Assembly: GCF_002163585.1 (NCBI RefSeq)
Contig: NZ_CP015579.1
Span: 3,410,001-3,474,000 of the forward strand
From: Tatumella citrea
Lineage (GTDB): Bacteria > Pseudomonadota > Gammaproteobacteria > Enterobacterales > Enterobacteriaceae
Direction of reading: 5' to 3'
DNA: 64,000 nucleotides
Shown: in pieces, positions 1 to 12,861 of the stretch
How positions within the stretch are numbered: the stretch's first letter is position 1
Layout: each line of letters opens with the position of its first letter
The notes under the pieces: generated by a model
Told to the model about the DNA's origin: nothing
Databases searched by the model: none
Seen by the model: the letters and a program-made list of their open reading frames with translations, nothing else
Made by a program: the position numbers and the translations under genes

Positions 1-380
1 TCGGTATAGGGAAGAGTATCGGTTCCTTCCAGCTCAATACCTACAGAAAAATCATTGCAATTACTCTGCCCCTGGTAACAAGACTGTCCGGCATGCCAGG
101 CCCGCTTATCAAAGGCCACATACTGGACAATTTCTCCGTCACGGCGAATCAGGCAATGCGCGGCCACTTTTAGCTCAGCAATATCTTTGAAATAAGGATC
201 GGCCTGCGGGTCAAGGTTGCCGGTAAATAACTGATCAATCCATGGGCCGCCAAACTTGCCAGGAGGCAGGCTGATATTATGTACAACCAGTAACCAGGGA
301 CTGGTATCTTCAGGACGCTCATTAAAATGTTCTGAAGGTACCTTCCTTGCCTCTGTCAGCCAGCCTGATTCTATTTTCAT
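1..380 (-). CDS. ampD: 1,6-anhydro-N-acetylmuramyl-L-alanine amidase AmpD (C-terminus cut off by window edge)
   Basis: AmpD is the cytosolic zinc amidase that cleaves the L-alanine bond of anhydro-muropeptides during cell-wall recycling, and so sets the inducer level for AmpR/AmpC systems where these exist. The first 126 codons are in view, from the ATG at 380-378 (MKIESGWLTEARKVPS). His34 in VVHNIS is the first zinc ligand of the family, WHAG is at residues 95-98, and Glu116 in the GIELEG segment matches the catalytic glutamate. The remaining zinc ligands lie beyond position 1. It is divergent from the nadC homolog, as in E. coli. The reading is secure; whether the missing end is intact cannot be seen. 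Confidence 0.95.
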   Translation of the reverse strand, partial: MKIESGWLTEARKVPSEHFNERPEDTSPWLLVVHNISLPPGKFGGPWIDQLFTGNLDPQADPYFKDIAELKVAAHCLIRRDGEIVQYVAFDKRAWHAGQSCYQGQSNCNDFSVGIELEGTDTLPYT

Positions 381-420
381 ACCTGTGCCGTTCCCCTGCC
401 TGAATTTGAGAATATCATAA

Positions 421-461
421 ATACTGGCATGATATTGTTTCCTGTTAATACAGACCAGTAT
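421..461. repeat. Inverted repeat in the ampD/nadC divergent intergenic region
   Basis: ATACTGG (421-427) and CCAGTAT (455-461) form perfect 7-bp arms around a 27-base AT-rich loop, within the 206-bp region between two divergent genes. Such an arrangement could be an operator or a structured leader. No family-specific binding site was recognised, and arms of this length can arise by chance. Confidence 0.3.
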
Positions 462-586
462 CATATGTTTATTGTGGTTATTCCGATGCTTACCCTGATA
501 CTTAACTGGTTACTCTATTCAACTGGTGGTGTGTTGCGCTTCAGGCTACAGTATTTATTCCTGCCATTAAAGGAGCAAACCGTCTT

Positions 587-1465
587 ATGCCGATCAGCCA
601 TTACGCAGCAGAACACTGCCGCCAGTTATTACTGGAACGAATTCAAACAGAAATTCCTGAATCTGTTCAACTGGCACTTAAAAATGCGCACCCCGCATCT
701 ACCCTGCCAGGAGACAGACCAGGACAGGCCATTATTGTCTGTAAAGAAGACGGTATTTTCTGTGGAAAGGCCTGGGCAGATGAAATATTTAGCCAACTGG
801 ATACCAGCATCACTGTGCAATGGCAGGTCAACGATTCGGACGCTATTCAGGCCGGTCAGACACTGGCAATAGTAAATGGCCCGGCAGCAGCGCTGTTAGT
901 TGCGGAGAGTGTGGTTGTTAATTTTTTACAAAATCTTTCCGGAGTTGCCACACAAATCAATAAGCTTGTTGAGCAACTGAATGGTTCCCAAACCCGGTTG
1001 ATTGACAGCCTGAGCAGCACCCCCGGCACGAACAGTCTGAAATATGCTCTGCTCATGGGTACGAAGCAATCCGCCTGTCTGGACTTCAGTGACATGATTC
1101 CGTTGCGGGAAAACCATATTATTGCCTGTGGTTCAGTATTAGAAGCGATAGAAAATGCCCGCTGGATAGATCCGGACCGGCCGGTTGAAATTGAAGTGAC
1201 ATCTCAACAGCAGTTGTCAGAGGCGAGCAGTGCCGGAGCTAACTTTATTTTGCTTAATGGTTTTACTACAGCTGAGATCACAACTGCTGTCGACTTTGTC
1301 AGAAAAAATGCAGCACAAACTCATCTGGAAGCCGGAGGGAATATTTCCGGGGATGACCTTGATGAACTGGTCCGGACAGGCATCGGTTATGTATCAGCAG
1401 ACGCCCTGATTCGCCACCAGAGACCTCTCAGTATATCGCTGCAATTCCAGGCTGCTGCCAGCTAA
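587..1465 (+). CDS. nadC: NadC-like protein, probable catalytically dead quinolinate phosphoribosyltransferase
   Basis: By position (divergent from ampD, before ppdD), length (292 aa against 297 in E. coli, from memory) and scaffold segments (LLERI near residue 15, GIFCGKAW 56-63, LSGVA 117-121, ENHIIA 175-180), this is the nadC ortholog. NadC makes nicotinate mononucleotide from quinolinate and PRPP, the last committed step of de novo NAD synthesis. Here the active site is gone. DTRKT is DSLSS (140-144), the GGGANHR segment is GTKQSAC (158-164), the lysine of KENH is Arg174, LDN is LNG (223-225), the arginine of GER is Ser108, and EVSGN is EAGGN. The REDLG..D.T loop after residue 30 is replaced and about ten residues shorter. 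The frame is unbroken and has a good ribosome binding site (AAAGGAG, 569-575) before ATG 587. It is therefore either decaying without stops or kept for a non-catalytic role. Confidence 0.85.
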   Translation: MPISHYAAEHCRQLLLERIQTEIPESVQLALKNAHPASTLPGDRPGQAIIVCKEDGIFCGKAWADEIFSQLDTSITVQWQVNDSDAIQAGQTLAIVNGPAAALLVAESVVVNFLQNLSGVATQINKLVEQLNGSQTRLIDSLSSTPGTNSLKYALLMGTKQSACLDFSDMIPLRENHIIACGSVLEAIENARWIDPDRPVEIEVTSQQQLSEASSAGANFILLNGFTTAEITTAVDFVRKNAAQTHLEAGGNISGDDLDELVRTGIGYVSADALIRHQRPLSISLQFQAAAS

Positions 1466-1505
1466 TCACAACCGGCTGCTACCAGGCAGTTTTTTGAAGC
1501 CATCT

Positions 1506-1602
1506 CCCACGTTTTATTGTATGGCCGAAACCTCCCGATAATCACGCAGAGCCCTTTCTCAACGTGATTATCGGCCCCAGGTATTTCAGCCATGCCCACG
1601 TT
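1506..1602. repeat. Long hairpin element flanked by 8-bp direct repeats
   Basis: Perfect 12-bp arms CCGATAATCACG (1535-1546) and CGTGATTATCGG (1563-1574) enclose a 16-base loop. The stem continues outward through ACCT/AGGT (1530-1533 with 1579-1582) and ATGGC/GCCAT (1521-1525 with 1589-1593), with small bulges. CCCACGTT stands directly outside on both sides (1506-1513 and 1595-1602). The pattern is that of a small palindromic mobile element with a target duplication. It could instead be a structured 5' leader of ppdD or a 3' end of nadC. No T-run follows, so it is not a normal terminator. Confidence 0.6.
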
Positions 1603-1634
1603 ATTCTCCTGGCTTAGTGCTTAAGGAGGACAAC

Positions 1635-2081
1635 ATGCATAACCAGCAAGGATTTACGCTAACAGAGCTGATGATCGTGATTGCTATCATTGCAATCCTC
1701 AGCGCCATTGGGTTACCTGCTTATCAGAACTACCTGCAGAAAGCCGCTATCACCGATATGCTGCAACTGATGATGCCCTATAAAACCGCCATTGAGCTCT
1801 GTGCTATGGAAAGAGGCAGCGTGCAAAACTGCAATGCTGAAACCTATGGCATCCCCGCCGAAAAGGGCTCCCGTTACAGCGAAAAAGTGACCATCAGCAA
1901 CGGGCAAATCACACTCACTGGCCTTGAAACCCTGAAAGGTTTAAGTGTGCAACTTTTCCCTCACTGGGACGCCAAAAAAGGGGATTTGCAGTGGTATAAG
2001 AAGTGCCAGAGCGAGAATCGCTTACTTCTGAATAACTGCCAGAACCAGTTCAGATTTAGTGATCAACAGGAGCAACTATGA
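1635..2081 (+). CDS. ppdD: Type IV major prepilin PpdD
   Basis: PpdD is the major pilin subunit of the enterobacterial type IV pilus. The start is ATG 1635, preceded by a strong AAGGAGG; an ATG-less extension upstream would spoil the short leader. The leader MHNQQG is cut by prepilin peptidase before Phe7, and the hydrophobic N-terminal helix carries the conserved Glu at mature position 5 (Glu11), followed by ILSAIGLPAYQNYLQKAA-type sequence. Cysteines occur in pairs near the middle (ELC...QNC) and near the end (KKC...NNC), consistent with pilin disulfides. The protein has 148 aa, close to the E. coli length. Its stop overlaps the hofB start (ATGA), indicating translational coupling with the assembly ATPase. 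Confidence 0.95.
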   Translation: MHNQQGFTLTELMIVIAIIAILSAIGLPAYQNYLQKAAITDMLQLMMPYKTAIELCAMERGSVQNCNAETYGIPAEKGSRYSEKVTISNGQITLTGLETLKGLSVQLFPHWDAKKGDLQWYKKCQSENRLLLNNCQNQFRFSDQQEQL

Positions 2082-3478
2082 CCGGTTTATCCCTGGATAT
2101 TCTCTGTCGTCAGCTCCCTGCCTGCATTATTTCCAGGGATCATCAACAGTTGAAACTGGCGGTGGCTACACAGCCTTCTGCGGAAATCACCGAAGCATTA
2201 TGTTTTGCCAGCCAGTGTCAGGTGGAATATGAGATTTGGCCACTGACCCGAATTGAAAATCAGCTCAGGAATCAGCCTCGCCGTTTGCACCAGGAAGTTC
2301 CTGAATATGAAATCCCAGGTGTTCCGCAGGTTGCCAGCCAACTGCTGCAGCTGGCGGTCAGACAACGTGCATCAGATATTCATCTTGAACAAACGCTTCA
2401 GGGTACCGTTATTCGTTTACGTATTGATGGTTTGCTGCAACCCGCGACTCTTCCCGGCTCGTTTACTGCTCCGGCACTGATTGCCAGGTTTAAGATCCTG
2501 GCCGGGCTGGATATTGCCGAATCCCGCTTACCTCAGGACGGCCAGTTATCACTGGAAATTAACGGAGAAAATCACAGTTTTCGTTTATCGACTCTGCCTA
2601 CCAGGCTTGGAGAAAAACTGGTGCTCAGGCGGTTGCAGCTACTTCCCGCCACCCTGAATCCGCAACAACTGGGACTGAGCGAACAGCATTTAAAGCAGGT
2701 CATTGATGTTCTTAGCCAACCCCAGGGAATGATTCTGGTGACCGGCCCGACAGGCAGTGGGAAGACATTTACCCTGTATAGTCTGCTGAACCAGCTTAAC
2801 ACCAGTGATAAAAATCTCAGCAGTGTTGAAGACCCCGTTGAAATGCCTCTGAATGGTGTCAACCAGTCGCAGATTAACAGCAAAGCGGGACTTGATTTCG
2901 CCCGTATTCTACGGGCCTTACTTCGCCAGGACCCTGATGTCATCATGATTGGCGAAATTCGGGATAATGAAACCGCAGAAATAGCGGTAAAAGCTGCACA
3001 AACAGGACATCTGGTTCTGTCCACACTGCATACCAATTCAACTCATGAAACACTAATTCGCCTGCGACAGATGGGCATTGCCGGCTATTTGCTGGCCGCC
3101 TCTCTTAAACTGGTGATTGCCCAACGGCTGGTTCGCAAACTTTGCACTCACTGTCGCAGAGTTTCTGAGTCAGTGATTACACTGCCGGTTTCATTCGGAG
3201 ATCCCTGCTTAACACACTGGCTGCCTGTTGGTTGTGACTTCTGTTTTTCCGGGTATTACGGCCGTATTGCATTATTTGAAATACTGACCGTACAGGGAGA
3301 CCTTCATCAGGCTATTGCCCGTGATGCTACTGCTGAGGAGCTAATCTCCATAACTACCCGTCAGGGAATGCAGACACTATTCTTTGCAGGGCTCAACGCC
3401 GTCAGAGAGGGCCAGACATCCTGGGCTGAGGTTGTCAGGATAACCGGAGGTCCCGGTGAATCATTCAATATTGTTTGA
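2078..3478 (+). CDS. hofB: Type IV pilus assembly ATPase HofB (GspE/PilB family)
   Basis: HofB is the cytoplasmic secretion-type ATPase expected to power polymerisation of PpdD. In its 466 aa are Walker A GPTGSGKT (223-230), the Walker B/Asp-box segment DVIMIGEIRD (287-296), the His box HLVLSTLHTN (311-320), and four cysteines C356, C359, C386 and C389 of the tetracysteine zinc motif. The N-terminal region (1-80) is the shorter, variable GspE-type domain. It overlaps ppdD by 4 bases and hofC by 23 bases. All catalytic motifs are intact, so the protein should be functional if the other pilus genes (secretin, peptidase, elsewhere) exist. Confidence 0.95.
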   Translation: MTGLSLDILCRQLPACIISRDHQQLKLAVATQPSAEITEALCFASQCQVEYEIWPLTRIENQLRNQPRRLHQEVPEYEIPGVPQVASQLLQLAVRQRASDIHLEQTLQGTVIRLRIDGLLQPATLPGSFTAPALIARFKILAGLDIAESRLPQDGQLSLEINGENHSFRLSTLPTRLGEKLVLRRLQLLPATLNPQQLGLSEQHLKQVIDVLSQPQGMILVTGPTGSGKTFTLYSLLNQLNTSDKNLSSVEDPVEMPLNGVNQSQINSKAGLDFARILRALLRQDPDVIMIGEIRDNETAEIAVKAAQTGHLVLSTLHTNSTHETLIRLRQMGIAGYLLAASLKLVIAQRLVRKLCTHCRRVSESVITLPVSFGDPCLTHWLPVGCDFCFSGYYGRIALFEILTVQGDLHQAIARDATAEELISITTRQGMQTLFFAGLNAVREGQTSWAEVVRITGGPGESFNIV

Positions 3479-4655
3479 CTGGCAGGCAGTCAACCGTGAG
3501 GGCGAACACTGTTCAGGGACAAGACTGGTCAGAACACGCCAACAGTTGGACGATTTCATGCAGACTGAAGGACTGGTGCCGGTACAGATTACCAGAAAGA
3601 AAACCTACTCAGCGCGCCACTGGCGCTGGTCGGACAGAATACTGTTTTTCAGCCAGGCAGGTACTCTGCTACAAGCCGGTCTGCCGCTGGCAGATGGCTT
3701 AAATCTGCTGGCTAGCAGCCATCCGGCGAAACACTGGCGGTCGGTAATGCTGCAGTTACAGCAGCAAATACTATCCGGACAATCATTTTCGGTAGCACTT
3801 CGTCAGTGGCCAGAGATTTTCCCGTCAGTCTGTATTTCACTGGTCAGTGCCGGAGAGCAGACCGGGAAACTGGAATACTGCTGCATGAAACTGGCACAGC
3901 AACAGCAACGTCAGTTGCAGTTGAAACAGCAGCTATTCAAAGCTATGCGCTATCCATTGTTTATGCTGTTGCTAACAGTGATGATCAGTGGCGGAATGCT
4001 GTTATGGGTGCTGCCCGAATTTGCAGAGATTTACCGCTCATCAGACACACCACTACCTGAATTCACCCGCTGGTTAATCTCGTTATCAGACAACCTGCTA
4101 GCCATGTTACCCGGGATTCTGTTGTTCTGGATTGTCTTAATTTTCGGATGGCGGCTCAAAAGAAAAAACAATCTCTCATGGCAACAGACTGAACAACGCT
4201 GGTTGCTGCGACTACCGCTGGCGGGTGTTTTGTGGCAGTCCACAATTCTGGCACAGATATTCAGCATACTGGCGCTGACACAGCAATCCGGATTGCCACT
4301 AAGGGAAGGACTGAACATCACAGGACAACTACAACATGGCGGGCTCTGGCATCAGGCACTGGAAAATTTGCGCCTGCATATTGAACAAGGACAATCGCTG
4401 TCATCAGGCTTAATTCAACAGGTAGGTTTTCCGCCGCTCTGCTATATGCTGATAAGGTTGGGTGAACAAACCGGCACTCTTGACCAGTTATTTGGCAGGC
4501 TGGCTGACTGGTATGAAGCCCAGGCCAGCAGAACTACAGCTGAACTGACAACGTCTGTCGAACCAGTCATGTTAATGATTACCGGTATTATTACCGGCAG
4601 CATTGTGGTGGCAATGTATTTACCCATGTTCAGTCTGGGTGAAGCCTTGTTTTAG
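3456..4655 (+). CDS. hofC: Type IV pilus inner-membrane platform protein HofC (GspF/PilC family)
   Basis: HofC is the polytopic inner-membrane protein on which the pilus is assembled, partner of HofB. The start chosen is GTG 3456, which has GGAGG at 3446-3450 and gives 399 aa, about the E. coli length. Two GspF domains can be seen: the first follows FFSQAGTLLQAGLPLADGL (about 65-83), the second ILALTQQSGLPLREGLNI (about 270-287). Membrane segments lie near 170-190 and 215-235, with a C-terminal one ending near MYLPMFSL. The gene overlaps hofB by 23 bases, so the three pilus genes form one operon. No terminator with a T-run follows directly. Confidence 0.93.
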   Translation: MNHSILFDWQAVNREGEHCSGTRLVRTRQQLDDFMQTEGLVPVQITRKKTYSARHWRWSDRILFFSQAGTLLQAGLPLADGLNLLASSHPAKHWRSVMLQLQQQILSGQSFSVALRQWPEIFPSVCISLVSAGEQTGKLEYCCMKLAQQQQRQLQLKQQLFKAMRYPLFMLLLTVMISGGMLLWVLPEFAEIYRSSDTPLPEFTRWLISLSDNLLAMLPGILLFWIVLIFGWRLKRKNNLSWQQTEQRWLLRLPLAGVLWQSTILAQIFSILALTQQSGLPLREGLNITGQLQHGGLWHQALENLRLHIEQGQSLSSGLIQQVGFPPLCYMLIRLGEQTGTLDQLFGRLADWYEAQASRTTAELTTSVEPVMLMITGIITGSIVVAMYLPMFSLGEALF

Positions 4656-4997
4656 CAGCAGGCTACGGGATTCAGCTTGTTCCATACCTGTTAACTTCGC
4701 GGGCGTTGGCCCGTTGCCAGTGGAAGAAGCTGATGAAAACGGCACACAGTTATTCACCAACACCAGACAGGTGTTGTAGCAAGGGTTATCAGACAGCCCT
4801 GTATAGCGCTACAACCTTAATGAGGTTACAACCTGTGAAGCTACAACCGGTGAAGCTACAACCTGCAGCGACATAAACGACAGACTTATATCGCCATTCG
4901 CGTCAGGGATGACAGAGTCGTTCAGTATCTGTCCGATTAAGAAGGCAGCCTGCGGATTACTATTATGCAGACTGCTTTTATACAGACGGCGGGGAAA
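4656..4997. other. Intergenic region between convergent hofC and guaC with repeats and alternative hairpins
   Basis: This 342-bp stretch holds no convincing gene. GGTGTTG (4770-4776) can pair with CAACACC (4758-4764) in a short hairpin. The overlapping GTTGTAGC (4773-4780) is instead complementary to GCTACAAC at 4808-4815 and 4840-4847, nearly so to 4825-4832 (GTTACAAC), and partly to the copy at 4855. The last four copies form a short tandem array of GYTACAACC spaced 17, 15 and 15 bases. AAGGG/CCCT (4781-4785, 4797-4800) extends the first long hairpin. This may act as a 3' RNA structure or terminator region for hofC; its function is unknown. Confidence 0.55.
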
Positions 4998-6044
4998 TTA
5001 CTCTTTACCGTTGTATGTGCGGTTTTCCTGCTCTGCGACCCTGATAAACGTAGTGCGCTTGGTGAGTTCTTTTAATCGCTCAGCTCCTACATAAGTACAG
5101 GCAGATCGTAATCCTCCCAGAATATCTCTGACGGTAGGGTCAACAGGCCCCCGAAGTGGCAGGCGAACAGTCTTACCTTCTGCAGCGCGATACTCTGCGA
5201 CACTTCCTGAATGGCGCTTCATCGCAGATTCCGAACTCATTCCATAAAACAGCATAAAGGAGTGACCGTTCTCTTCAACAATGGTGCCTTCACATTCATC
5301 ATGTCCGGCCAGCATTCCGCCAAGCATAACAAAATCGCCACCGCCGCCGAATGCTTTAGCTACGTCACCCGGCACGCTGCAGCCACCATCACTGACTATC
5401 TGTCCTCCCAGTCCGTGAGCTGCGTCAGCACATTCAATGACGGCCGATAGCTGCGGATAACCTACACCGGTTTTAACCCGGGTTGTGCATACTGAACCAG
5501 GACCAATCCCGACTTTTACAATATCGGCACCGCTAAGAATCAGCTCTTCAACCATTTCGCCGGTAACGACATTACCGGCACAAATCGTTTTATCAGGAAA
5601 AGCGTCTCTGGCACGTTGTAAAAAATTAACAAAGTGCTCTGAGTAACCATTCGCCACATCAATACAGATAAAACTCAATCGGGTGGACAATGACAGTATC
5701 TGCTTCAGCTTATCAAAATCAGCAGCAGACGTTCCGGTTGATACCATCACATGACTAAGTACCTTTTCCGGAGCAGCCTGTAAAAACTGCTGCCACTGTT
5801 CTACGCTGTAGTGTTTGTGAACGGCGGTCAGCATACCAAAATCGGCCAATGCAGTTGCCATCCGAAAAGTGCCGACAGTATCCATATTTGCGGCAATGAC
5901 CGGCACCCCGGACCAGCTTAGTCCGGAATGTTTAAAGGTAAAATCACGGCTGAGTTCAACCTGAGAGCGGCTTTGCAGTGTAGAGCGTTTGGGTCTGATC
6001 AGGACATCCTTGAATCCCAGTTTAATATCTTCTTCAATACGCAT
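4998..6044 (-). CDS. guaC: GMP reductase GuaC
   Basis: GuaC converts GMP to IMP with NADPH, releasing ammonia, and feeds guanine nucleotides back to the adenine branch. The 348-aa protein keeps the IMPDH/GMPR fold: [15 protein letters not shown] at the start, NMDTVGTF near residue 54, the nucleotide-binding [11 protein letters not shown] loop with the catalytic cysteine near 186, and the VSDGG...[10 protein letters not shown] segment near 215-235. Length equals the E. coli enzyme within one residue. It is transcribed alone, divergent from coaE and convergent with hofC, as in E. coli. Confidence 0.96.
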
Positions 6045-6095
6045 AATTTAGTCCGTTCCTGTTACAGTGAGACAACGTAGGTTCCTTCCAGTGTT

Positions 6096-6123
6096 ATCAT
6101 ACGCCGCAATAAAGCAACAACAA
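6096..6123 (-). promoter_or_regulatory. Candidate sigma-70 promoter of guaC
   Basis: Reading the minus strand, TTGTTG (6123-6118) is followed after 16 bases by TATGAT (6101-6096), about 50 bases upstream of the guaC start. The spacing and position suit a sigma-70 promoter. It is a by-eye match only, and no PurR operator was seen around it. Confidence 0.4.
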
Positions 6124-6241
6124 GGCTGCGTTTTTGGTTTTTATTGCGCTACAATTCGCTTAATCAGGCTGAGATAATTTTCGCCACCCGTGAGTTTCTC
6201 TGCATTCCGGTTCGTCCGCTTACAGTCAGGATACATGCAAT

Positions 6242-6859
6242 ATGCCTTATGTTGTTGCGCTCACCGGAGGTATTGGTAGCGGCAAAACCACTATCGCAGA
6301 GATGTTTGCCCGGTTAGGGGTAAAAATTGTTGATGCAGACATCATAGCCCGTCAGGTCGTCGAACCCGGTTCACCGGCTCTTGAAGAGATTCGCCATCAC
6401 TTTGGCCCACAGGCCATACTGCCTGAAGGCAATCTGGACAGGGGATGGTTACGACAGCGCATTTTTGCTGATCCTGCCAGTAAAAACTGGCTGAACGCTC
6501 TGTTGCACCCATTAATTCAGCAACAGACACAGCAATTGATTACCGCAATTACCGATGACTGGTGCCTTTGGGTCGTGCCACTGCTGGCAGAAAACGGCTT
6601 GCATCATCGTGCAGATCGGGTGTTGGTGGTGGATGTCGATGAAGAAACCCAGATACGGCGCACCATGGACAGAGATAATATTACGCGTCAGCAGGCCGCT
6701 GACATTCTGACGGCTCAGGCCAGCCGGCAATCGCGCTTACAGATTGCCGATGATGTGATTGATAACTCCGGTTCACCGGAGGATCAGCAGCAGGTCGTGG
6801 CGATGCTACACCAGCGCTATCAGTTACTGGCGTCAGCAAAAAAAGGATCGGTACCATGA
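6242..6859 (+). CDS. coaE: Dephospho-CoA kinase CoaE
   Basis: CoaE phosphorylates the 3'-hydroxyl of dephospho-CoA with ATP, the final step of coenzyme A synthesis in the cytosol. The 205-aa protein starts [16 protein letters not shown], with the P-loop at residues 9-16, followed by the VDADIIAR substrate segment (about 31-38) and a lid region with RQQAADI. Length matches E. coli (206 aa). Its stop overlaps the zapD start (ATGA, 6856-6859), so coaE-zapD-yacG read as one operon. Confidence 0.96.
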
Positions 6860-7599
6860 GTTCTGTTGTCCTGTTTGAATATCCGTTAAATGAAAAAATG
6901 CGTACCTGGCTGAGAATTGAGTATCTCATACAACAATTAACCGGAAGCATGCCGGTCAGTGATCCGGTATCCGCTCTGAGTTTTTTCCGCGGAATCGGCG
7001 ATTTACTGGATATCTTTGATCGTGGTGATATGCGGGCAGATCTTGTAAAAGAACTGGATCGCCAACAACAGAAACTGCAAAGCTGGCTGAGCGTCAGCGG
7101 GGTTGATACGCTCAGGGTATCTGAACTGCAGCAACAGCTGAAAGGTCAGTCAGCCCGGCTGATGAGTGCCCCGCGTATGGGACAGCAGCTTCGCGAAGAC
7201 CGGTTTATTAGCCAGGTTCGCCAGCGTCTGAGCATCCCGGGTGGATGTTGCAGCTTTGACCTGCCAGCTTTGCATGTCTGGCTGAATCTTCCGGAAGATG
7301 AACGTCAGTCTCAGGTGACAGAATGGTTCGATTCGCTGGAACCGTTGCGCGAAAGTCTGACTTCAGTACTGGAACTGATTCGCCAGTCAGGCAATTTTCA
7401 GCCACAGACCAGCCTGAATGGTTTTTTCCAGGATACCGCCGAAGATGCCGATTTGTTAAGGCTCAGGCTGGAGAACAGCTCGGCACTTTATCCACAAATT
7501 TCCGGCCACAAAAATCGTTATGCCATCCGTTTTTTACCGATGGACACTGGCGGCGGGGAAATACCGCCCCGGTTACAGTTTGAACTCGCATGTTGTTAA
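6856..7599 (+). CDS. zapD: Cell division protein ZapD (YacF)
   Basis: ZapD binds the C-terminal tail of FtsZ and bundles protofilaments at midcell. The product has 247 aa, the same as E. coli, and carries the family's opening [20 protein letters not shown] and a mostly helical N-terminal half. It begins within the end of coaE (4-base overlap) and is followed nine bases later by yacG. Its place beside coaE and yacG and close to the ftsZ cluster is the usual enterobacterial one. Confidence 0.95.
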
Positions 7600-7608
7600 G
7601 AGGAAAGT

Positions 7609-7800
7609 ATGCAGGAAGATATTGTCACGGTTCAATGCCCGACTTGCCAAAAAGATGTTATCTGGGATGAGCTCAGCCCGTGGCGACCGTTTTGCTCAAA
7701 ACGTTGCCAGATGATTGATTTAGGTGAGTGGGCTGCTGAGGAAAAACGTATCCCGGTGGATGATAAACTTTCTGAAGATGAAGAGTGGAGCGGAGAATAA
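7609..7800 (+). CDS. yacG: DNA gyrase inhibitor YacG (zinc-binding)
   Basis: YacG is a small zinc protein that binds the GyrB subunit and inhibits gyrase in E. coli. The 63-aa product has the four zinc cysteines C10, C13, C29 and C33 (CPTC...CSKRC) and the acidic tail typical of the family. AGAGGAAAG stands just before ATG 7609. It ends the coaE-zapD-yacG operon ahead of a terminator. Confidence 0.95.
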
Positions 7801-7815
7801 CACGCCCACCAGACA

Positions 7816-7846
7816 GGGGCTAAATGCCTATGGCATCGCCCCTTTT
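7816..7846 (+). terminator. Rho-independent terminator after yacG
   Basis: GGGGC (7816-7820) pairs with GCCCC (7838-7842), and ATGCC (7824-7828) with GGCAT (7832-7836) inside it; TTTT follows directly at 7843-7846. It closes the plus-strand coaE operon in front of convergent mutT. Confidence 0.85.
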
Positions 7847-7850
7847 CTGA

Positions 7851-8246
7851 TTACAGCTCTCCGGCAACCAGTCTGCCGACCAGTTGATGATTAGCCGGTG
7901 GAAATTCTTCCGCCTGAAGATCCTGCTGTGCAACCCAGCGTTGCGGCTGCCCTTCTTTTCCCCACGGCTCGCCATTCCATTGTTCCACAATAAAAAAGTG
8001 CAGGGTCACCCGGACATTGTCATACGTGTGATCGGCATTGCCCACTGGCCGGGAAGAGAGTACTTCAATGCCGGTTTCTTCCATCAGTTCACGCTTCAGC
8101 GCTTGCTCAGCGGTTTCACTCTGTTCAATTTTCCCGCCGGGAAATTCCCATTTATTTGCCATATGGGAGGTTGATGAACGTTGGGCCAGGAAAATTCCAC
8201 GCACAGGGTCCCGAATAATACCTACCGCTACCTGAAGATGTTTCAT
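7851..8246 (-). CDS. mutT: 8-oxo-dGTP diphosphatase MutT
   Basis: MutT hydrolyses 8-oxo-dGTP to the monophosphate and prevents A:T to C:G transversions. The 131-aa protein has a complete Nudix box from Gly38 to Ile60 (G38, E44, R52-E53-L54, E56-E57, G59), preceded by WEFPGGK. Length is close to the 129 aa of E. coli. It lies downstream of secA on the same strand, separated by about 164 bases, with AAGGT a few bases before its ATG. Confidence 0.96.
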   Translation of the reverse strand: MKHLQVAVGIIRDPVRGIFLAQRSSTSHMANKWEFPGGKIEQSETAEQALKRELMEETGIEVLSSRPVGNADHTYDNVRVTLHFFIVEQWNGEPWGKEGQPQRWVAQQDLQAEEFPPANHQLVGRLVAGEL

Positions 8247-8383
8247 TGATTACCTTTAGAGTCATTGCATGCCCGGAGATAAAATGCCGGTGTTCGTGGC
8301 ATATCTGTAGTGCTGCCCGGGAATGACGGCCAAGAAAAAGGTCCATGTTGCCATGAACCTCCGTCATATTGGTTAGCAATATC

Positions 8384-8399
8384 CCGGCCTTACGGCCGG
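8384..8399 (-). terminator. GC-rich hairpin after secA, weak terminator candidate
   Basis: CCGGCC and GGCCGG form a perfect 6-bp stem with a 4-base loop just after the secA stop. No T-run follows on the minus strand, so complete termination is doubtful and mutT may be partly co-transcribed with secA. It could instead stabilise the 3' end. Confidence 0.4.
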
Positions 8400-8410
8400 T
8401 TGCCTGTCAC

Positions 8411-11116
8411 TCAGGCAATACGCCCATGACATTGCTTGAATTTTTTACCTGAACCACAAGGGCAAGGGTCATTACGACCAACTTTACGCTCACCGCTTTG
8501 AGAAGCTAACTCTGCTGCTGCAGCGGTATCAGAATCCACATGACTAAGCTGCTGCTGGCTGGCTAAACGTTCCGCTTCTTCGCGACGTTGCTGCTCGAGC
8601 GCTTCAATTTCTTCTGGCATGCGAACCTGAACCTTGCTCAGGGTACTGATAACTTCATATTTCAGTGATTCCAGCATGTTAGAGAACATAGAGAAGGATT
8701 CACGTTTATATTCCTGTTTAGGATCCTTCTGTGCATAACCACGTAAATGAATCCCCTGACGTAAATAATCCATAGCCGCCAGATGTTCTTTCCACAATGA
8801 ATCCAGGGTTTGAAGCATCACCCCTTTTTCAAAGTTACGCATCATATCTGCACCGACCACAACTTCTTTCTCGCTGTAGTTCTCCAAAGTGCGCTGCATA
8901 ATACGTTCGCGCAATGTCTCTTCATGCAGTTCCGGCTCTTTATCCAGCCAGTCGGCAATCGGCAGATTCAAATCGAAATCATTACGTAACCGCTCTTCCA
9001 GTCCTGGAATATCCCACATCTCTTCCAGTGACTGTGGTGGAATATAACTGTCAATGGTCGCGGTCATGACATCTTCGCGAATACCATTAATGGTCTCACT
9101 GACATCAGACACATCCAGCAATTCATTACGCTGGGTATAGATTGCACGGCGCTGATCGCTTGCAACATCATCGTATTCAAGCAACTGCTTACGGATATCG
9201 AAGTTGCGGCTTTCAACTTTACGCTGTGCATTAGCGATAGCTTTGGTCACCCACGGGTGCTCGATAGCTTCCCCTGGTTTCATTCCCAGTTTACGCATCA
9301 TGCCAGACACACGATCAGAGGCGAAGATACGCATCAGAGCATCTTCCATCGACAGGTAGAAACGGGAAGAACCCTTATCTCCCTGACGACCAGCACGGCC
9401 ACGCAGCTGGTTATCGATACGACGTGATTCATGACGTTCGGTACCGATAATATGCAAACCACCTGAGTTTAGTACTGCATCATGACGTTTTTGCCATTCA
9501 GCTTTAATCTCACTAATTTCTTCTTCCGATGGATTATCCTGGGCCTCAACCTCAGCATGCCAGCTACCGCCCAGCATAATATCGGTACCACGACCGGCCA
9601 TATTGGTGGCGATGGTCACAGCAGATGGCTGACCAGCCTGCGCGATAATATCAGCTTCACTGGCGTGGAATTTCGCATTCAGAACATTATGCTTAATTCC
9701 CGCTTTAGTCAGTTCATGAGAAACCACTTCTGATTTCTCGATCGAGATAGTACCGACCAGTACCGGCTGTCCGTTAGCGGTACGCTCGCGGATATCTTCG
9801 ATGATGGCATCAATTTTCTCTTTCTCTGTCATATAGACCAGGTCAGGAAGGTCTTTACGTACCATCGGACGGTTAGTTGGCAGCACAATCGTATCCAGTT
9901 TGTAGATTGAGCTGAATTCAAAGGCTTCGGTATCTGCAGTACCGGTCATCCCGGCCAGTTTTTCATACAAACGGAAATAGTTCTGGAAGGTAATTGACGC
10001 CAGAGTCTGGTTTTCATTCTGGATTTCAACACCTTCTTTAGCTTCTACCGCCTGATGCAGACCATCAGACCAGCGACGGCCCTGCATGGTACGACCGGTG
10101 TGTTCATCAACGATGACAACTTCACCGTCTTTCACAATGTAGTCAACATCACGGGTAAACAGCGCATGGGCACGCAGTGCAGCAGTGACGTGATGCATCA
10201 GCATGATATTGGTTGGAGAGTACAGAGACTCGCCTTCTTCCATAATCCCCTGGCTGACCAACAGCTGTTCAATTTTCACCAGCCCACGTTCAGTCAGATG
10301 CACCTGACGTGATTTCTCATCAACAGAGAAATCTCCCTCGCCCTGGAAAGTGTCAGAGTCTTCTTTATCCTGACGAACCAGGTGAGGAATAATTTTATTC
10401 ACCTTGATATACAGCTCAGAACTGTCTTCTGCAGGACCAGAAATAATCAGAGGTGTACGTGCTTCATCGATCAGGATGGAGTCGACTTCATCCACCAGCG
10501 CATAGTGCAGTTTGCGCTGTACGCGCTCTTCCGGGCTGAAAGCCATATTGTCGCGCAGGTAGTCAAAACCATATTCGTTGTTGGTACCGTAGGTAATATC
10601 TGCACCATAGGCTTCACGCTTAGCAGGTGCCGGCATTCCAGGCAGGTTAATACCAACAGTCAGGCCAAGGAATTCAAACAGAGGACGGTTATTTTCCGCA
10701 TCACGCTGAGCCAGGTAATCGTTGACTGTTACCACGTGCACGCCTTTACCTGACAATGCATTCAGGTAAGCAGGCAGGGTCGCGGTCAGTGTTTTACCTT
10801 CACCTGTACGCATCTCAGCAATACAGCGTTCGTTCAGAACCATACCACCCATTAACTGCACGTCGAAATGGCGCATATTAAAGATACGGCGACTGGCTTC
10901 ACGAACCGTGGCAAAGGCTTCAGGAATCAGGCTTTCCAGGACTTCGCCTTTTTCCAGGCGAGCGCGGAATTCTGTAGTTTTCTCTTTAAGCTGTTCATCA
11001 GTCAGTGCTGTGAACTGAGGTTCCATTTTATTAATAATATCAACCGTTTTACGCATACGGCGTAAAGTACGATCATTACTGCTACCAAAAATTTTAGTTA
11101 ATAATTTAATGACCAT
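8411..11116 (-). CDS. secA: Preprotein translocase ATPase SecA
   Basis: SecA is the ATPase motor that drives unfolded proteins through SecYEG. Length (901 aa) equals E. coli SecA. Visible motifs include the P-loop in MRTGEGKT (about 102-109), the [18 protein letters not shown]-box stretch (about 207-220), the [10 protein letters not shown] motif VI region, and the C-terminal zinc motif C885-C887-C896-H897 that binds SecB. The ATG at 11116 lies 65 bases after the secM stop. A short CAGCAA/TTGCTG hairpin (11135-11140 with 11145-11150) lies in that spacer, in line with SecM-controlled exposure of the secA start. Confidence 0.97.
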
Positions 11117-11181
11117 TTTTTTATAATCTCAATTCAGCAAAAATTTGCTGCAAAAAACCGGGGGTAATTGTTTGCTTGATC

Positions 11182-11688
11182 TCAGGCGGCCACGGGTCCG
11201 GCACGTATGCCCTGAGTCCCGGCCAGCCACAGGCCACTATTGAAAACGGAAGGGTGCCGCATACCCTCAGGCAGCGGGCGGGAGATCAGTACACCAACAG
11301 GAGGCCGGGTAGTCAGCAACGCATGCAGTGACTGTAGCACTGCAATTTTTTGTACTGCCAGTGGCAATAATTGTTGCTGTGTTTCTGGCTGAAGCTGCGG
11401 TAGGGAAAATGACAGATGGCGGATTACCACCCGGATAGCATGCTGATGCCAGTAATCGACATTCACTCCGGGACGGCGTACCGTCGAGCGAATTCGCAGC
11501 AGATTCTCAAACGGAGCAGCAGTACCGATGAACAGTGTATTTGCGGGGACATCTGCCCCGTTGCCGGATTCAAGCGCCTGAGCATTCGCTACCGGCAAGC
11601 CAAGACTCGCCGCGACCATCCCCAGCAGGAGATGCGGCCAGAAATAACGCATGCCAAGTTGTCGCCAACGCGAAAAAAGTCCGATCAC
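11182..11688 (-). CDS. secM: Secretion monitor SecM with translation arrest peptide
   Basis: SecM stalls its own ribosome when its export is slow, opening the mRNA so that secA is translated. The GTG at 11688-11686 is preferred: it gives 168 aa and the start V/M-IGLFSRWRQLGMRYFW, which lines up with the E. coli N-terminus; an upstream ATG at 11718 would add ten unlikely residues. A long signal peptide runs to about ANA-Q near residue 36. The arrest region spans residues 149-165: Phe149, Trp154, and Gly160-Ile-Arg-Ala-Gly-Pro165, matching the E. coli pattern except that Leu155 replaces Ile156. Three residues follow the arrest proline. The middle of the protein is poorly conserved, as usual for SecM. 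Confidence 0.93.
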   Translation of the reverse strand: MIGLFSRWRQLGMRYFWPHLLLGMVAASLGLPVANAQALESGNGADVPANTLFIGTAAPFENLLRIRSTVRRPGVNVDYWHQHAIRVVIRHLSFSLPQLQPETQQQLLPLAVQKIAVLQSLHALLTTRPPVGVLISRPLPEGMRHPSVFNSGLWLAGTQGIRAGPVAA

Positions 11689-11880
11689 AATCTGTCCATT
11701 GAATACGGGTATACACATCTCCGGGGGAAATTCAGCTATCCCTGCAAAAGCCGGCCGGACATGTCATTTGATATAAGAGAGATAGTAACACTAATGACAG
11801 TTTTCAACATCAGAGAATAAGAAACCAGGGAAGAAATTCGGGGTTTTGCTGTTTTTTTCAACAGAACAACTGAAGGGTAT

Positions 11881-11932
11881 AAAAAAACAGCAGGCTTACT
11901 GACCGGAGAGAGTATCAGTAATTCCTGCTGTT
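11881..11932 (-). terminator. Strong rho-independent terminator after lpxC
   Basis: AACAGCAGG and CCTGCTGTT (9-bp arms, 11924-11932 and 11886-11894), with an inner TTACTGA/TCAGTAA pair, form a long stem. On the minus strand it is followed by a run of seven T (11887-11881, partly in the stem). It marks the 3' end of the dcw/lpxC transcript, so secM-secA needs its own promoter in the 11689-11880 region. Confidence 0.9.
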
Positions 11933-11943
11933 CTTAGATTTTA

Positions 11944-12861
11944 TCAGGCAAAGACCAGATTCGGTGCTTTAAACGCCTGAGGCAACTCAGCTTCATCTTC
12001 GAAGGTCGCCCATTCCCAGGCTTCCTGTTTCGCCAGTACTGCCTGCAGCAACTTGTTATTCAGTGCGTGTCCGGATTTGAATGCAGTAAATGCACCAATC
12101 ACGTTATGGCCACACATAAATAAGTCACCGATAGCATCCAGCATTTTGTGACGAACAAATTCGTCTTCAAAACGCAGGCCATCTTCGTTCAGTACACGAA
12201 ATTCATCCAGCCCAATCGCACAGTCAAGACTACCGCCCAGGCACAGGCCACGAGACTGCAGATATTCAATTTCATGCATGAAGCCGAAAGTACGGGCACG
12301 GCTAATCTGGCGAACAAACGCGTCGGCGGAGAAGTTCAGCTGATAGCGCTGTGAACTCGCATCAATCGCCGGGTGTTTAAAGTCGATAGTAAAGTCGAGT
12401 GAGAAACCATTGTAAGGTTTCAGCTCTGCCCACTTGTCACCGTCTTCAACACGTACAGCCTGTTTGATACGAACGAATTTTTTAGCACTGTTAAGTTCTT
12501 CAACTCCTGCATCAAGCAGCAGATAAACGAACGGCGCAGCACTACCATCCATAATCGGGATTTCTGGCGCATCAACTTCAACAATAATGTTGTCGATACC
12601 CAGGCCAGCCAGCGCTGAATTTAAATGTTCAACGGTTGAAATACGCACACCTTCATCGTTAACCAGGCAGGTACTCAGCATGGTATCGCGCACGTATTTT
12701 GCATCAGCCGGGAAATCCACCGGTGGATTCAAGTCTGTGCGACGATAGATGACCCCGGTATTGGCCGACGCAGGGCGCAGTGTCAGAGTGACTTTCTTAC
12801 CGGTATGTAAACCGATACCTGTCGCCTGAACAATACGTTTTAATGTCCTTTGTTTGATCAT
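11944..12861 (-). CDS. lpxC: UDP-3-O-acyl-N-acetylglucosamine deacetylase LpxC
   Basis: LpxC is the zinc deacetylase that commits UDP-acyl-GlcNAc to lipid A synthesis. The protein has 305 aa, the E. coli length. His79 in [10 protein letters not shown] and the [10 protein letters not shown] segment (His238 and Asp242 by equal length) supply zinc ligands, and the C-terminal SGHALNN segment carries the general acid histidine. The C-terminus ends LVFA, related to the degron through which FtsH controls LpxC in E. coli; the exact signal differs. It lies about 100 bases after ftsZ and ends just before a strong terminator. Confidence 0.97.

Follow-up and report, generated by a model that had tools for sequence, protein, structure and literature searches.

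The window analysed here is a stretch of 64,000 nucleotides from Tatumella citrea, and near its start lies a homologue of nadC, the gene for quinolinate phosphoribosyltransferase (QPRTase). It is flanked by a divergent ampD and by ppdD-hofB-hofC, which is the place of nadC in the outgroup loci examined (Table 1). An earlier note, made from the letters of the window, had described a NadC scaffold of 292 codons without a stop in the nadC position, and this description is borne out by the open reading frame and by matches to the NadC profile and to both Pfam domains. A search of the whole 4.49-Mb genome at E ≤ 0.001 returned no second NadC homologue or paralogue. Compared with the window, the three named Tatumella loci gave values of 83% (T. 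morbirosei, the nearest), 67% (Tatumella sp. JGM91) and 48% (JGM118).

Table 1. Features of the nadC region in window coordinates, with residues numbered as in the window protein
Feature	Position	Strand	Remarks
ampD	3..464	-	Divergent neighbour, truncated by the window edge; marker of the nadC position
Upstream element GGCTACAGTAT...TAAAGGAG, with ribosome-binding site at ~568-575	544..575	+	From the alignment
nadC homologue, putative QPRTase-fold pseudoenzyme	587..1465	+	292 aa, frame open, nadC position
Residues 1-23, N-terminal helix region	587..655	+	Relative rate 0.65 in Tatumella, 1.27 in canonical NadC
Loop-shortening site (canonical EDLGG...D), around residues 35-37	689..697	+	10 residues shorter
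S108, replacing quinolinate-binding Arg (M. tuberculosis R105)	908..910	+	
L142-S143, replacing Arg-Lys of DTRKT (M. tuberculosis R139, K140)	1010..1015	+	
A163-C164, replacing His-Arg of NHR (M. tuberculosis H161, R162)	1073..1078	+	
Residues 166-206	1082..1204	+	Slowest of 13 site classes in Tatumella-type proteins (0.49; canonical 0.66)
R174, replacing Lys of KENH (M. tuberculosis K172)	1106..1108	+	
ENARWIDPDRP, residues 189-199, newly fixed motif	1151..1183	+	From the rate analysis
N224, replacing Asp of LDN (M. tuberculosis D222)	1256..1258	+	
G250, replacing Ser of SGN (presumably S248 in M. tuberculosis numbering)	1334..1336	+	
ppdD, prepilin-like	1635..2081	+	Downstream neighbour of the nadC homologue

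The surroundings of the gene vary between the six Tatumella genomes (G000 to G005). The guaC gene (4998-6044 of the window, minus strand) adjoins hofC in G000, G004 and three outgroup loci; no guaC turned up within the ~19-kb loci from G001, G002, G003 and G005. For hofC of G002 (L037), the best tblastn piece covers only residues 155-399 of the window hofC, and the frame may be broken. In G001, the gap between the nadC-like gene and ppdD is 1,666 bp, compared with 166-169 bp in the remaining five genomes, and contains an ORF matching T6SS_HCP (104.4 bits; L034:11844-12344, minus strand) together with other ORFs.

The window protein scored 204.1 bits against TIGR00078, for which the cut-off is 198.4, and was also above the cut-offs of PF02749 and PF01729. 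Among the 13 clusters of similar proteins described below, six proteins were scanned and two of them, the window protein and P0006 (206.3 bits), passed the TIGR00078 cut-off, with P0009 (184.9), P0026 (148.8), P0121 (145.4) and P0011 (141.2) falling below it. Mean pLDDT was 87.2 for the AlphaFold2 model of the window protein and 87.8 for that of P0026, two proteins with 41% identity. When the model of the window protein was searched against PDB structures, the top-ranked matches were QPRTases, indicating that the two-domain QPRTase fold is kept; nicotinate phosphoribosyltransferases share this fold. A replacement of nadC by a ModD-type gene was rejected, given a score against TIGR01334 of 42.1 bits with a cut-off of 178.85.

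A NadC search over 60 genomes, comprising the window's own, five congeners and 54 others, showed that every one of the six Tatumella genomes carries a single intact nadC-like copy. In an alignment of 16 of the 30 loci (six Tatumella and 10 outgroup), the catalytic motifs are gone in every Tatumella copy, whereas DTRKT, NHR and the lysine of KENH are kept in all 10 outgroup copies; aligned with NadC of close relatives in this way, the active-site changes that the earlier note had seen in one genome turn out to be common to the genus sample. Proteins with an erased active site form 13 clusters, of which P0001-P0011 and P0026 came from a protein search and P0121 from a profile search that scored the 7996 candidates sharing most words; among the best 120 of its 271 hits, P0121 stands at 422 bits and the score then falls to 307 bits. 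DTRKT is absent from 14 of the 168 proteins collected, namely these 13 clusters and P0152, which reads ETRKT and is canonical-looking otherwise. P0121, which likewise has no DTRKT, was found later and is outside the 16-row counts given below.

A tree was built from 40 rows, and one of its branches, supported at 100/100, separates the 16 Tatumella-type rows from all others; rooting was by midpoint alone, and the program gave a warning about meeting long branches. The alignment behind the tree omits seven distant loci (L024-L030) of the 30 as well as P0001 and P0006, judged by eye to be copies of G000 and G002, and includes seven further proteins chosen as canonical rows. The 16-row set amounts to about 12 distinct sequences, because G004/P0004, G003/P0009, G005/P0007 and G001/P0026 are near-duplicates. 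Since the 16 rows share one fully supported branch, the simplest reading of the sequences is a single origin of the active-site loss before these Tatumella species diverged. Sequencing error was discarded as a cause, because the changes are consistent across six assemblies and recur in additional protein clusters.

At the level of individual residues, each of the replacements listed in the earlier note (DTRKT to DSLSS, GGGANHR to GTKQSAC, KENH to RENH, LDN to LNG, and GER to AES) was recovered in the alignment, as was the persistence of the GIFCGKAW and ENHIIA segments. Its statement that the whole active site is rewritten is slightly too strong: eight of 10 tabulated catalytic positions are changed, and E203 and H277 are still canonical in the window protein. 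The shortening of the REDLG loop by about ten residues holds for the window protein, where a 10-column gap is seen, but not as a trait of the genus, because only three of the six Tatumella copies have a 10-column gap in the EDLGG..D loop, while the gap in G001 spans four columns and G003 and G005 have none. The clustering of changes at the catalytic centre, also claimed there, is supported statistically: the ancestral residue is kept in 16% of cases at 10 catalytic sites, compared with 59% at the other canonical-invariant sites (113 in total), and a retained fraction as low occurred in only 3 of 5000 permutations.

Single alanine mutants of M. tuberculosis QAPRTase at R105, R139, R162, K172 and H175 had undetectable activity, and the primer table fixes the motif of R105, R139, R162 and K172 (PMC4065032). 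In the window protein the first four of these residues are replaced by S, L, C and R, respectively, and the equivalent of H175 (H177) is kept. In porcine QPRTase, Lys139 and Asp222 make contact with NaMN at its phosphate and ribose groups (PMC3633916). The equivalents of R105, R139, K140, H161 and D222 are lost in 16/16 Tatumella-type rows, differing from 24/24 canonical rows, and those of K172 and R162 are lost in 14 and 7 of the 16; overall, a Tatumella-type row retains between 0 and 4 of the 10 catalytic residues. As the published single mutants at the same residues had no detectable activity, QPRTase activity has presumably been lost. Some of the pocket persists, with H177, N176, K152, D169 and E107 kept in all 16 rows and site 142 uniformly L or I, and these remnants leave room for a new ligand. 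Most old-pocket positions vary among Tatumella species (S/T/N, S/G/N, A/G/K/Q/E, R/K/N/T, N/R/Q/H).

Selection on the gene was estimated pairwise with our own GY94-type codon-model script. Omega for nadC was 0.174 for G000-G004 (dS 0.61), 0.164 for G003-G005 (dS 0.47) and 0.144 for G000-G002, a pair whose dS of 1.8 is near saturation, and omega = 1 was rejected in all three (LRT 95.0, 86.6 and 134.2, respectively). In the same pairs, omega was 0.14-0.18 for coaE, 0.10-0.13 for hofC, 0.10-0.12 for hofB, 0.06-0.14 for zapD, 0.04-0.07 for ampD, ppdD and mutT, and 0.01-0.03 for secA, which makes nadC and coaE the least constrained of the nine genes compared. Canonical NadC gave 0.043-0.055 in five moderately diverged pairs and 0.131 in a sixth, nearly identical pair; relative to the five, the Tatumella gene is clearly constrained, but roughly threefold less tightly than that of the enzyme. 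In a neutral simulation that counts point stops only, 120, 20, 7, 0, 0 and 0 of 2000 frames stayed open at 0.1, 0.2, 0.3, 0.5, 1 and 2 substitutions per site.

Upstream of the gene, the segment GGCTACAGTAT...TAAAGGAGCAA is nearly identical across the six Tatumella genomes, and no sigma-70 consensus promoter was found there. Within the gene, codons 189-193 hardly vary among the six genomes, a pattern that raised suspicion of constraint at the nucleotide level. Where a codon column encodes one shared degenerate amino acid throughout the six genomes, the codons are identical in 12/76 columns of nadC (0.16), a synonymous identity within the range of 0.10-0.25 shown by seven neighbouring genes; the longest run of identical degenerate codons is 2, and positions 1-12000 of the window have no Rfam match.

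The loss of active-site residues is accompanied by loss of the pathway upstream. Neither nadA nor a NadB above cut-off was found in any of the six Tatumella genomes, whereas each is present in 8 of 11 other genomes. The NadB profile does match Tatumella proteins at ~335 bits, but such matches are also seen in genomes that have a genuine nadB, and they are probably SdhA. The pncB gene is present in all 12 genomes searched, six Tatumella included, so that NAD in Tatumella is presumably made from nicotinate. De novo NAD synthesis has been lost repeatedly in the family, as seen in G008, G017 and G027 from three other genera (the same family by the grouping given with the genome collection), which lack nadA, a NadB passing the cut-off and NadC, apart from one weak NadC match in G027 (E 4.8e-6). 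At their ampD loci (L043, L044 and L042, respectively), a prepilin-like ppdD ORF comes next after a gap of ~245-305 bases, with no nadC between. The loss of nadABCX in Tatumella has already been published, with 0/3 genomes carrying these genes compared with 21/21 in Pantoea (PMC5808187); the passages of that article on this loss do not mention a retained nadC-like gene, and its main text does not contain the word 'pseudogene'.

The distribution of evolutionary rates along the protein indicates where constraint has moved. Nine catalytic positions evolve at a relative rate of 1.05 in Tatumella, compared with 0.07 in canonical NadC, and within Tatumella the difference between catalytic and other canonical-invariant sites is modest (1.07 versus 0.75; 765 of 20000 permutations). 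Residues 189-199 form the slowest 11-residue window in Tatumella (0.32 versus 1.44 in canonical NadC), with the lowest ratio of 282 windows. In the N-terminal helix region, S4 and H10 are fixed in 16/16 rows and C11 in 15/16, and D166, P172 and C181 are newly fixed elsewhere in the Tatumella-type proteins. The AlphaFold2 model places a helix at 184-194, a loop at 195-199 and a strand at 200-204. In alpha/beta barrels, the loop before a barrel strand sits opposite the active-site face; because this helix end and loop precede such a strand, the order of secondary structure suggests that residues 189-199 face away from the old active site. Loops that follow strands, on the old active-site side, have a rate of 0.82 in Tatumella and 0.28 in canonical NadC; for loops that precede strands, on the other side, the rates are 0.95 and 0.80, indicating that the old side has lost its privilege and that the other side as a whole has gained none. 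The gain of constraint is thus local to residues 189-199 and the N-terminal helix, and there is no wholesale exchange of faces.

Judged from sequence comparison, the protein is very probably dead as a QPRTase and selected for another function of the protein itself, and the best explanation overall, which we consider probable, is a pseudoenzyme derived from NadC. In an ancestor of the Tatumella examined, the de novo NAD pathway would have been lost and the QPRTase active site dismantled, with NAD then supplied from nicotinate via the retained pncB; the two-domain fold would have been kept under purifying selection for a role other than the production of nicotinate mononucleotide. Judging by secondary-structure order, the most strongly newly fixed residues, in the N-terminal helix and at 189-199, lie off the pocket, and the pocket positions mostly vary, for which reason we suppose that the protein may work by contact with another macromolecule, possibly as a binding partner or scaffold. 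Whether it acts mainly through protein contacts we regard as evenly balanced, and a role as a partner in NAD metabolism is a doubtful refinement. Equally tentative is the more detailed proposal that, after the switch to nicotinate salvage, the QPRTase became a dedicated binding protein, with selection shifting towards the N-terminal helix and towards the 189-199 stretch of the opposite face, and that it serves as a regulator or obligate partner of some other component of the cell, perhaps of NAD salvage. An unlikely alternative is a neofunctionalised enzyme or small-molecule sensor, in which the re-lined barrel cavity would bind or convert another ligand using the conserved pocket remnants and new residues. 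The intact fold, the uniform L or I at 142, the newly fixed D166, P172 and C181, and loops on the old active-site side that evolve no faster than those on the other would all suit such a protein. However, most positions of the old pocket differ between species, which is unexpected for one conserved ligand site, and the strongest new constraint lies at 189-199, ahead of a barrel strand.

Slow decay of a gene made useless by the loss of nadA and nadB was the rival named in the earlier note, which expected it to bring dN/dS near 1 and frameshifted copies in sister strains; the opposite was found, and its preferred reading, a pseudoenzyme kept for another role, is upheld by the omega values and by the disappearance of the genes supplying quinolinate. 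An absent pathway and an omega above that of canonical NadC are what decay would predict, but with omega = 1 rejected in three pairs, all six frames intact, the upstream region and ribosome-binding site conserved, and no nadC left at the locus in three pathway-less relatives, we reject simple decay as highly improbable. It is just as hard to maintain that the protein is still a phosphoribosyltransferase for quinolinate or a related substrate with a redesigned active site: the window protein scores above the family cut-off and keeps the H175 equivalent, but four residues that are individually essential in M. tuberculosis are replaced, the K140 and D222 equivalents (phosphate and ribose contacts in the porcine enzyme) are lost in every Tatumella-type row, and neither NadA nor a NadB above cut-off is there to make quinolinate. 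Least credible of all is that the stretch is kept as a DNA or RNA element, such as a promoter, sRNA or operon leader. The near-invariant neighbouring codons 189-193 would fit an element of this kind, but ordinary synonymous identity, the short runs of identical codons and the Rfam result speak against it, and the omega values place the constraint on amino acids; nucleotide-level constraint was accordingly rejected.

Rarity of such a protein was assessed in 394 genomes drawn evenly from the order. A TIGR00078 match at E ≤ 0.001 was present in 325 of them and the DTRKT..PG DNA signature in 277; by hand count, 48 genomes had a match without the signature, 30 at E ≤ 1e-50 (the window's own included) and 18 weaker. 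Loci were fetched for 13 of the 48 and for G346, in which the signature is present, and 13 of these 14 were aligned, with G276 omitted. Those read were G042 and G087 (two of 18 from their genus), G169 and G242 (two of 8 from theirs), G065, G283, G212 and five weaker matches. DTRKT, NHR, KENH and LDN are kept in G042, G087, G169, G242 and G283; G065 has DTRKS, KEIH and LHN and keeps NHR; the five weaker matches look ModD-type by sequence. The only other suspicious case among the candidates read is G212, a 2.0-Mb genome from another family of the order, whose NadC homologue (L055, G212:C154:7083-7889, minus strand) scores 176.6 bits, below the nadC cut-off, and reads STRKA, GSLWG for NHRLG, RPIH for KENH, and LSN; from these motifs, it is possibly a second, independent NadC pseudoenzyme. 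As 35 of the 48 candidates (the window's own aside) were left unread, rarity is supported, not proven.

In the open-licence literature of PubMed Central, we found no report of a Tatumella nadC or quinolinate phosphoribosyltransferase pseudoenzyme, and, by title, none of the articles there on pseudoenzymes and phosphoribosyltransferases concerns NadC. A pseudoenzyme is often a surplus paralogue of an enzyme that still works. Here, the sole copy of a core metabolic enzyme appears to have lost its chemistry alongside its pathway and yet is kept in all six Tatumella genomes returned. Set against the absence of nadC from this place in three other genera of the family that lack the pathway genes, this retention amounts to a natural experiment on a fold outliving its reaction. 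There is also a practical consequence for annotation: P0006 and P0009 bear the NCBI-sourced name carboxylating nicotinate-nucleotide diphosphorylase, despite their missing active-site residues, and because such names are those of a functional NadC, a name-based reconstruction of the pathway would credit Tatumella with a step that it most likely cannot perform.

Among known systems, the closest is NadC itself (EC 2.4.2.19; TIGR00078, PF02749 and PF01729; PDB 1qap, 3paj and 1qpr), with which the Tatumella-type proteins share the fold, the length, a gene location flanked by ampD and ppdD, the N176-H177 pair and many other residues of the core, at ~40% identity to enteric NadC. They differ from it in that the residues binding quinolinate and PRPP are replaced, the genome has no NadA and no NadB above cut-off, and the conserved stretch now lies elsewhere, in the N-terminal helix and at residues 189-199. 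ModD (TIGR01334) belongs to the same superfamily as the window protein, but the five weak TIGR00078 matches that we presume to be ModD-type keep TRKS and the following HR, whereas TRK is gone from the Tatumella proteins. Metabolic enzymes have reportedly given rise to pseudoenzymes elsewhere too: the second APRT isoform of Trypanosoma brucei is said to be one, with an active isoform kept, to judge by the title of the paper, and a plant indole pseudoenzyme is reportedly another. In T. brucei the active isoform stands alongside, unlike in the window's genome, where a second NadC homologue is absent and the upstream pathway genes are gone; what both cases appear to have in common with the Tatumella protein is that relatives of an enzyme are retained without the ancestral activity.
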